From the NCBI RefSeq assembly GCF_020148005.1, contig NZ_JAGXFD010000001.1:2259739-2323738 (forward strand): a DNA stretch of 64,000 nucleotides. Direction: 5' to 3'. How positions within the stretch are numbered: position 1 is the first letter of the stretch; every line of letters starts with the position of its first letter. The notes beneath the pieces were generated by a model. The model searched no databases. It saw only the letters and a list, made by a program, of their open reading frames with translations, and was not told the DNA's origin. This DNA is from Modicisalibacter tunisiensis. GTDB taxonomy: Bacteria > Pseudomonadota > Gammaproteobacteria > Pseudomonadales > Halomonadaceae. Of this stretch, positions 61,941-64,000 are shown in pieces. The translations under genes and the position numbers were made by a program.

Positions 61941-62855
61941 ATGATTAAGCAAAGAACCCTCAAGAACACCATGCGGGCCACGGGAGTCGGCCTGCACTCG
62001 GGCGAGAAGGTCTATCTGACCCTGCGTCCGGCGCCGGTCAACACCGGCATCGTGTTCGTGCGCACGGACCTCGAGCCGGAAGTTCGCATCCCGGCGCGCG
62101 CCGAGAATGTCACCGATACCACCCTGTGCACGGCCCTGTCGCGCGACGGCGTCAAGGTGGCGACCGTCGAGCACCTGATGTCGGCCTTCGCGGGACTGGG
62201 TATCGACAATGCCTTCGTCGAGCTGAGCGCACCGGAAGTGCCGATCATGGACGGCAGTGCCGGACCCTTCGTGTTCCTCATCCAGTCGGCGGGAATCGCC
62301 GAGCAGGAGGCGCCGAAGAAGTTCATTCGCATCAAGCGCGAGGTGCTGGTGCGCGACGGCGACAAGGAAGCCCTCTTCCTGCCCCATGAAGGCTTCAAGG
62401 TCACGTTCTCGATCGATTTCGACCATCCGGTCTTCGAGCAGCAGAAGCAGCTGGCCAGCGTCGACTTCTCGACCACCTCCTTCGTCAAGGAAGTCTCGCG
62501 GGCCCGGACCTTCGGCTTCATGCGCGACCTGGAGTTCCTGCGCTCGCAGAATCTGGCCCTAGGCGGCAGCCTGGACAACGCCATCGTCGTCGATGACTAC
62601 CGCATTCTCAACGAGGGTGGGCTGCGCTACGAGGACGAGTTCGTTAAGCACAAGGTGCTCGATGCCATCGGCGACCTCTACCAGCTCGGCCACAGCCTGA
62701 TCGGCGAGTTTCGCGGCGTGAAGTCCGGTCATGCCCTCAACAATCAGCTCTGCAGGGCCATGCTGGAAAACCCCGACGCCTGGGAGATCGTCACCTTCGA
62801 GGAGGCGTCCCAGCGAGCGCCGATCTCCTACTCGGCCCCTGCCATGGCCATGTGA
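61941..62855 (+). CDS. lpxC: UDP-3-O-acyl-GlcNAc deacetylase LpxC
   Basis: 304 residues. The zinc ligands are His78 (VEHLMSA), His237 and Asp241 ([10 protein letters not shown]), with the catalytic His264 (SGHALNN). It performs the committed step of lipid A synthesis. The ATG at 61941 is the family start. A terminator follows it. Confidence 0.98.
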
Positions 62856-62925: not shown

Positions 62926-63414
62926 TCACGCGTCCCGGCTGTCGCCGTTCATCGACGCGTGGGCAGCGAGGCGCTCCAGGGCGCGCTTGAGTTGCGGGTC
63001 CTGGGTGTCCCGGGCGCAGGCCTGCAGTTCATCGGCGGCGGGGGAGGACAGCGTTCGGTGCTGGACCGGGGGTGGTCTGACCGGGCTGACGGGGCGCACC
63101 TTGAAGGTCAGGGCGAGCACGGCCTCGAAGCCGGGCAGTTCTCGTATCAGGCGCAGCAGGCGTGTCTGATCGTAACGCAGTGCGGTCAGCCAGTGGGCTC
63201 CATCCGTGATCAGGGTCAGGCGCCCATCCCGGTAGCCGCCCACGAACAGGTGGGGGCGCATCTCTTCCGGGAGATGATGGCGCAAGTGCGCCTGGGCGCG
63301 GTCGATGAGCTGTGCCTTGTGCAGCAGCCCGCCGAGGTCGGCGCCGGAGGGGCCCTGGGGGGAAAGGAGGCGTGTCGCGGGCTGGGCGCGAAAACGCTTA
63401 GCCTTTATACTCAT
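62926..63414 (-). CDS. dciA: DUF721 protein, DciA-like helicase operator
   Basis: 162 residues. The DUF721 core (LLHKAQLIDRAQAHLR, HWLTALRYDQTRLLRLI) covers about residues 25-115, with a Pro-rich linker and a basic N-terminus. DciA loads or operates the replicative helicase DnaB in bacteria without DnaC. Position between lpxC and secA is as in pseudomonads. It is divergent from the small ORF upstream of secA. Confidence 0.85.
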   Translation of the reverse strand: MSIKAKRFRAQPATRLLSPQGPSGADLGGLLHKAQLIDRAQAHLRHHLPEEMRPHLFVGGYRDGRLTLITDGAHWLTALRYDQTRLLRLIRELPGFEAVLALTFKVRPVSPVRPPPVQHRTLSSPAADELQACARDTQDPQLKRALERLAAHASMNGDSRDA

Positions 63415-63481: not shown

Positions 63482-63835
63482 ATGACCTGCCCCACTCCTG
63501 CCGCGAGTCGCGCCGATGGAACCGGTCGGCAGCGTGCCAGACGCACGTCGCGCTGGTGGCTGGCCGGCCTGCTGGTCGGTTGCCTGCTGCCGACCACGCT
63601 GGGGCATGCCGAAGCGCTCCGGCTCGCCGAACAGATCACCCAGATCTGCCTCATGGCGCCCGCGGCGATCCGCGAGGAATCGCGTCGGGCGCGCAAGCGG
63701 GCTTCGCACCGGTGGCCGACGAGTGTCGGTCGGCCCGGGCGCGAGACGCGTGTCTGGCGGCAGGTGGCCGGGCACGCCTGTTCCGGTGCGGATCTGGCGT
63801 CTCGCGCCCCCCGGGCACCGCCTTTCATTGTGTGA
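63482..63835 (+). CDS. Putative SecM-like secretion-monitoring arrest peptide, upstream of secA
   Basis: 117 residues; I do not recognise a named family. What is seen: a basic N-region (RQRARRTSR), a hydrophobic stretch of about 17 residues and a GHA cleavage-like site near residue 42, so the nascent chain should enter the Sec pathway. The C-terminus reads SRAPRAPPFIV, with Arg111-Ala112-Pro113-Pro114 three residues before the end. Arg-Ala-Pro-Pro is the motif of recently described translation-arrest peptides (ApdP type), and E. coli SecM stalls at Arg-Ala-Gly-Pro. Codons are G/C-ending like those of neighbouring genes, and secA starts 69 bases after the stop. E. coli has the same order, lpxC-secM-secA. 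The ribosome binding site is weak. The arrest role is inferred; opposite-strand ORFs here look like shadows. Confidence 0.65.
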   Translation: MTCPTPAASRADGTGRQRARRTSRWWLAGLLVGCLLPTTLGHAEALRLAEQITQICLMAPAAIREESRRARKRASHRWPTSVGRPGRETRVWRQVAGHACSGADLASRAPRAPPFIV

Positions 63836-63891
63836 ATGCGTGATCGAGGTTTTCGGTCGGCAGAGTGCCGCCGGCCTTCTTTGCACAATGA
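63825..63891 (+). promoter_or_regulatory. mRNA helix linking the arrest-ORF end to the secA ribosome binding site
   Basis: Bases 63825-63836 (end and stop codon of the small ORF) can form a 12-bp helix with 63880-63891, including two G-U pairs. Its 3' arm ends next to the secA ribosome binding site (TTGGA, 63892-63896). CC at 63821-63822 could also pair with the GG of that site across a 2x2 loop. An inner hairpin, 63853-63862 with 63866-63874, closes the loop. A ribosome paused at Arg-Ala-Pro-Pro would cover the 5' arm. Confidence 0.6.
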
Positions 63892-63904
63892 TTGGATACT
63901 GCTA

Positions 63905-64000
63905 ATGATCAATACTCTGGTTCGCAAGCTCGTCGGGTCCAAGAACGACCGTGAAGTCAAGCGCATGGGCAAGCTGGTCGCCGACATCAACCGTCTGGAA
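63905..64000 (+). CDS. secA: Preprotein translocase ATPase SecA (N-terminal part)
   Basis: Only the first 32 codons are in the window. MINTLVRKLVGSKNDREVKRM, continuing into LVADINRLE, matches the SecA N-terminus, where SKNDR is conserved. SecA drives secretory proteins through SecYEG. The ribosome binding site (TTGGA, eight bases upstream) is weak and lies beside a predicted helix, consistent with translational control by the small upstream ORF. Confidence 0.92.
   Translation, partial: MINTLVRKLVGSKNDREVKRMGKLVADINRLE

Follow-up and report, generated by a model that had tools for sequence, protein, structure and literature searches.

A candidate SecM-like arrest peptide with an Arg-Gly/Ala-Pro-Pro motif upstream of secA in the Halomonadaceae

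Introduction

The analogy of a ribosomal stall that is released by pulling on the nascent chain derives from E. coli SecM and from the RQH arrest peptides (Fujiwara et al. 2024, PMC10987492; PMC10951233). In the account given in PMC10987492, the latter are products of small ORFs without annotated function upstream of secA, secDF or yidC, with a secretion signal or a transmembrane segment at the N-terminus, an arrest site more than 30 residues away from this signal, and a RAPP-like C-terminal sequence that is kept among homologues. Stalling in vitro was located by toeprints at the third motif residue, and the same work examined E. coli and B. subtilis proteins that contain RAPP-like motifs, most of which did not stall. 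One of the RQH peptides, uA_RQH_Pseudomonadales, is encoded directly upstream of secA in a subset of the GTDB Pseudomonadales, and its tested peptide, with the motif R109GPP, is reported there to reach an arrest fraction above 0.9 in both the E. coli and the B. subtilis PURE systems. For one RQH peptide encoded upstream of secDF2, a reporter and stem mutants support a stem that masks the downstream Shine-Dalgarno sequence (PMC10987492). ApdA and ApdP, which carry the RAPP motif, are also described upstream of secDF2, in Actinobacteriota and Alphaproteobacteria.

A literature search found no paper joining Halomonas or Halomonadaceae with SecM, secA or an arrest peptide. Halomonas serves as a production host, and a native response of secA to export load could be relevant to engineering secretion.

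A small ORF directly upstream of secA

The DNA analysed here (the window) is a 64,000-nt stretch of the Modicisalibacter tunisiensis genome (contig NZ_JAGXFD010000001.1), at whose 3' end a small ORF lies in front of secA:

63482..63835, + strand: candidate secA-controlling arrest peptide ORF, 117 codons (ORF list and homologues)
63905..64000, + strand: 5' part of secA, continuing past the window edge (sequence)

The 117-aa product begins with RRTSRWWLAGLLVGCLLPTTLGHAEA, judged by inspection to be signal-like, and ends in SRAPRAPPFIV. A gap of 69 nt separates the stop codon from the secA ATG at 63905, so that position 63904, the end of the interval given in an earlier sequence-only reading, is the final base preceding secA. 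The description of the ORF in that reading was confirmed from the sequence, and a SecA N-terminal query aligned to the source genome starting at base 63905 with 85 % identity. The ORF ending upstream at 62855 is presumably lpxC; between it and the small ORF lies a 162-aa ORF on the opposite strand (62926-63414, -), which we take to resemble a DciA/DUF721 protein. The position of the small ORF resembles that of secM in the E. coli order lpxC-secM-secA.

The ORF most probably encodes a SecM-like monitoring substrate of the Sec pathway that stalls the ribosome at R111-A-P-P and thereby tunes SecA to export capacity (probability about 0.87). Like E. coli SecM, it encodes a presumptive exported protein with an Arg-x-x-Pro motif, and its footprint arm pairs with the secA start region; unlike SecM, it lacks FxxxxWIxxxxGIRAGP and has RAPP in place of RAGP. 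The Pfam SecM family (PF06558) matched neither the window protein nor the source genome, while the E. coli control was matched, and homology to SecM was rejected with an hhalign probability of 0.1, in line with the earlier remark that no similarity to SecM is visible. The window protein had no match in Pfam or NCBIfam, and the 14 members of the same-genus profile gave a single weak Pfam match (E 0.071). No solved structure for the window protein was found by search; the predicted structure (mean pLDDT 59, helices at 17-58 and 60-77, unstructured C-terminus) is uninformative.

The closest match among described families is uA_RQH_Pseudomonadales, which, as far as its published description goes, shares with the window ORF the position directly upstream of secA, a localization signal and an RGPP/RAPP-like motif near the C-terminus (PMC10987492). 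The two are very likely the same family, an identification by analogy that draws on the fitting order, on RGPP in most members and on the motif Arg falling at residue 109 in nine of the 112 aligned loci, eight of them RGPP (numbering from script-set starts). Halomonadaceae are taken here to be placed by GTDB in Pseudomonadales. The suggestion that the family might be undescribed was therefore not upheld: it has probably been described already, in PMC10987492. In contrast to the peptide tested there, the window ORF has RAPP and an Ala-Pro insertion. The sequence-only reading had also invoked ApdA/ApdP-type motifs, namely RAPP and RAPG; the former stands, whereas the latter is, in the published account, the motif of ApcA. 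ApdA and ApdP themselves are set apart from the window ORF by the description of their genes upstream of secDF2 rather than secA. What appears to be new here is the RAPP subtype, the fixation in one clade, the statistics of the switch, the invariant Cys-Leu-x-Pro of the signal and the near-fixed distance from this Cys to the stall.

Distribution and origin

Relatives were found with the whole ORF or with two N-terminal peptides, and the motif was not used as a search key. The ORF is present in all 14 same-genus genomes, each time with R[AG]PP. A profile built from these 14 ORFs and run on 250 family genomes found a homologue in 234 Halomonadaceae genomes belonging to 20 of 24 genera. Among the best 80 of 161 loci, relatives include Modicisalibacter, Chromohalobacter, Salinicola and Halomonas, the closest being that of the Halomonadaceae MAG T82-2 (84 % identical). 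Parsing of 158 loci left 113 distinct secA-upstream stretches after the removal of 37 duplicates and of eight loci in which the script's pattern recognised no secA start, these eight being two weak chance matches and six loci of one genus (g4); four g4 genomes read separately contain RGPP.

R[AG]PP occurs in all 113 distinct stretches, in 112 of them within 25 residues of the ORF end; these 112 are the aligned loci referred to throughout. Their gap between ORF and secA measures 15-207 nt (median 71). In the remaining locus (L149), RGPP lies farther upstream, and the ORF continues beyond the motif to overlap the secA start by 4 nt. Another departure is seen in four loci of genus g7 (L151-L154), where secA lies 167-188 nt from the ORF.

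Of 293 genomes sampled from the order, 20 matched the profile, and the 12 strong matches all belong to the same family. The eight weak matches outside it (the best at E 2.8e-5 with two internal stops, the others at E 0.005-0.01) were regarded as fortuitous. Among 67 secA-upstream stretches fetched from the order's other families, four had no recognised secA start and one was too short; in none of the 62 readable stretches did an ORF ending near secA contain R[AG]PP.

The 16 of 250 family genomes without a match fall in four genera (g3, g5, g22 and g24, with 8, 6, 1 and 1 genomes). All 16 have an M23 peptidase ORF in the secA-upstream stretch (L159-L161, L164-L166, L168, L169 and L171-L178), which ends 112-184 nt before secA in 14 of them; in one it does not end within 450 nt, and one has no recognised secA start. 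The M23 ORF was also found in 49 of the 67 stretches from other families and, by the same scan, in none of seven ORF-bearing family loci.

A SecA tree (69 rows, 442 columns, quick search) was computed from 40 of the 112 parsed loci, two g4 loci, ten M23-bearing members of the family (g24 excepted) and 17 members of other families. In this tree, a single branch with an SH-aLRT of 100 separates the 42 ORF-bearing rows from all others, corresponding to one change of state, so that most simply the ORF would have been gained once and never lost within the sample. The M23-bearing family rows do not form one group, part of them being placed among other families. An origin of the ORF from the N-terminus of the M23 peptidase was rejected since the two N-termini are unlike, a comparison made by eye only. 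The ORF would be a secretion monitor of the RAPP/RGPP kind that has become fixed throughout one bacterial clade, at a site occupied by an M23 peptidase gene in the sister genera sampled.

Proposed arrest motif and linker

The C-terminal half of the product and the block preceding it comprise the following features:

63611..63700, + strand: conserved basic block, residues 44-73, with a helix predicted at low confidence (alignment and structure prediction)
63701..63781, + strand: hypervariable Arg/Pro-rich linker, residues 74-100 (mean pairwise identity)
63791..63823, + strand: C-terminal arrest module, residues 104-114 (family alignment)
63803..63811, + strand: first Arg-Ala-Pro, residues 108-110, of which 109-110 are a lineage-specific insertion (family alignment)
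63812..63823, + strand: Arg111-Ala112-Pro113-Pro114, predicted stall site, Pro113 occupying the P site and Pro114 the A site (conservation; P site by analogy with the toeprints in PMC10987492)

A RAPP motif in a chain rich in Arg, Ala and Pro could be fortuitous, the ORF then encoding an ordinary small exported protein that happens to lie beside secA. From the composition of the ORF, R[AG]PP is expected with p about 0.026 anywhere and p about 0.004 in the last 20 residues, which makes the lone sequence only mildly surprising, so that conservation had to decide. Among the 112 loci, RGPP occurs 105 times and RAPP seven times, with R, P and P invariant, and R-[GA]-P-P recurs in L149. Its codons vary synonymously, all six Arg, all four Gly and all four Pro codons being used, which points to selection on the peptide rather than on the DNA. 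Mean pairwise identities, computed over 30 chosen lineages, are 0.11 (residues 1-19), 0.54 (signal region), 0.38 (residues 44-73), 0.13 (linker), 0.64 (residues 101-114) and 0.08 (beyond the motif). The motif has therefore been kept between a linker and a tail that have diverged, which makes a chance origin very improbable and bears out the expectation that the C-terminus would be the more conserved part in Halomonadaceae homologues. The same data lend support to the proposal of a SecM-like arrest peptide with RAPP as its conserved element.

The idea that the first Arg-Ala-Pro is a further arrest element found no such support: residues 109-110 occur in two of the 112 aligned loci, and elsewhere the last motif alone is conserved. 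RAPP is seen in three lineages, the clade of the window and two others (together L001, L003, L070 and L151-L154). Pro precedes the motif in 7/7 RAPP loci versus 2/105 RGPP loci, although with only three lineages a Fisher p value overstates this association. Two of the three lineages have RAPRAPP; one acquired it through an insertion, the other apparently through substitutions.

The linker consists of 24 % Arg+Lys and 1 % Asp+Glu, and such a basic segment may make the product a deliberately poor export substrate.

Signal peptide and tether length

In the N-terminal part, two features were delimited:

63539..63610, + strand: signal peptide region, residues 20-43 (inspection; identity 0.54 over the 30 chosen lineages, a value that is too low because the script set some starts too late)
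63581..63583, + strand: Cys34 codon; Cys34, Leu35 and Pro37 are invariant in 112/112 loci (family alignment)

The assignment of a secretion signal is based on inspection and on conservation of the hydrophobic core. Cys-Leu-x-Pro (63581-63592 in the window) is invariant in all 112 loci despite synonymous codon variation. Cys34 and the P-site Pro are 77-84 residues apart in 112/112 loci (mean 80.2, sd 1.8), well above the 30 residues of the RQH description, even though the intervening linker is only 13 % identical. For arrest peptides of secA and secDF, PMC10987492 describes spacers that in most cases range widely in length. The near-fixed distance in the present family may partly reflect shared ancestry.

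The invariant Cys, preceded in 103/112 loci by a lipobox-like context ([LVI][ASTVIG][GAS]C), raises the question of whether the ORF monitors a special branch of export, lipoprotein processing, and not the general capacity of Sec. Only 19/112 loci, however, fit a fuller lipoprotein pattern (modelled on PS00013); the hydrophobic stretch extends past the Cys, and at the expected signal peptidase I cut position the most frequent residue is Ala (59/112). Together these observations leave such a specialised role quite unlikely. A related and rather speculative reading, also on the unlikely side, is that in core Halomonadaceae the ORF acts in the manner of a ruler, sensing one specific step of export (engagement of the signal or processing of lipoproteins), and not as a generic Sec sensor with a freely variable spacer; it draws on the single gain, the presence throughout the 20 ORF-bearing genera (all 234 genomes sampled from them), the near-invariant lipobox-like signal and a basic tether of about 80 residues that is fixed in length and free in sequence. 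The invariant signal Cys and the near-fixed tether length make it testable what such a monitor senses.

Proposed control of secA and the mRNA stem

Three further features connect the end of the ORF with the start of secA:

63821..63832, + strand: 5' arm of a predicted stem, codons Pro114 to Val117, inside the predicted footprint of the stalled ribosome (duplex prediction)
63884..63895, + strand: 3' arm of the stem, ending with the GG of the secA Shine-Dalgarno sequence (duplex prediction)
63894..63896, + strand: secA Shine-Dalgarno core GGA (sequence)

On the model of SecM and the RQH peptides, from which the stall, its exact position, its release by pulling and the feedback on secA are adopted, the signal peptide would direct the nascent chain to the Sec machinery, and the ribosome would stall at R-A-P/P. 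During active export, a pull on the nascent chain would relieve the stall and the ribosome would complete the ORF; the downstream stem would then re-form, and the CC in the codon for Pro114 would mask the GG of the secA Shine-Dalgarno sequence. When export is limiting, the stall would be prolonged, and the ribosome would sit on the 5' arm (63821-63832), keeping the stem open so that SecA could be made. A ribosome stalled with Pro113 in its P site, as published for this motif, would indeed cover the 5' arm, the edge of the footprint being set, as an assumption, at +15 from the P-site codon.

In the window, the duplex between the footprint arm and the secA start region has a predicted energy of -18.0 kcal/mol, a strength reached by 0.6 % of 5000 single-base shuffles (mean -9.2 kcal/mol, sd 2.7). 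By the same measure, the duplex of E. coli secM has -17.5 kcal/mol, with 2.4 % of 2000 shuffles as low. Across genomes, the duplex of each footprint arm with its own secA start region was compared with those formed with the regions of other genomes. The own pairing is the stronger in all 112 loci taken together (z -9.7), in reduced sets of 64 rows (p <1 in 5000) and 56 rows (z -6.2), and under stricter redundancy cuts (z -5.0, n=45; z -5.7, n=35). In the last two sets, the own duplex lies below the median in 33/45 and 28/35 loci, and the best duplex touches secA positions -14 to -5 in 30/45 and 25/35 loci, thus not in all.

Eight arms shifted along the mRNA, at distances of 12 to 126 nt (n 39-56), gave z values from -2.75 to +2.33, the lowest belonging to an arm just upstream that shares 4 nt with the test arm. 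Two control targets inside secA gave z -2.0 and -0.6; the former implies that part of the complementarity signal may reflect relatedness, some of which remains in all of these z values because the permutations ignore the tree. The positional specificity is nevertheless good evidence, at the sequence level, for a stem coupled to the footprint. Pairing of the footprint with the downstream start would constitute a statistical trace of a SecM-style switch.

As in SecM, a predicted stem would mask the secA Shine-Dalgarno sequence with its 5' arm in the footprint, but folding with the footprint blocked does not support the unmasking. The median unpaired probability of the Shine-Dalgarno sequence is 0.31 free versus 0.35 stalled; the block raises it by more than 0.2 in 25 % of the 111 loci folded, and in general the Shine-Dalgarno sequence was not freed among them. 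In the window, the value changes from 0.33 to 0.35, a small rise attributable to a weaker hairpin that can re-form.

This outcome speaks for an alternative in which the stall is real but secA is controlled by translational coupling or by antitermination/Rho instead of by Shine-Dalgarno unmasking. The 4-nt overlap in L149 would suit coupling, yet 95/112 loci have 55-110 nt between the stop codon and secA, which is long for this mechanism. Antitermination could involve a hairpin at 63855-63876 that resembles a terminator and has a weak T run, but the hairpin count of 1 is near the shuffle mean of 0.5. Against such control also stands the within-genome complementarity, which peaks when the footprint arm is paired with the start region of secA, and the alternative is considered unlikely. 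The Shine-Dalgarno-masking stem is thus retained as the preferred form of control. A point against it is that the whole-region fold of the window is only modestly more stable than its shuffles (z -1.83, 9 of 200).
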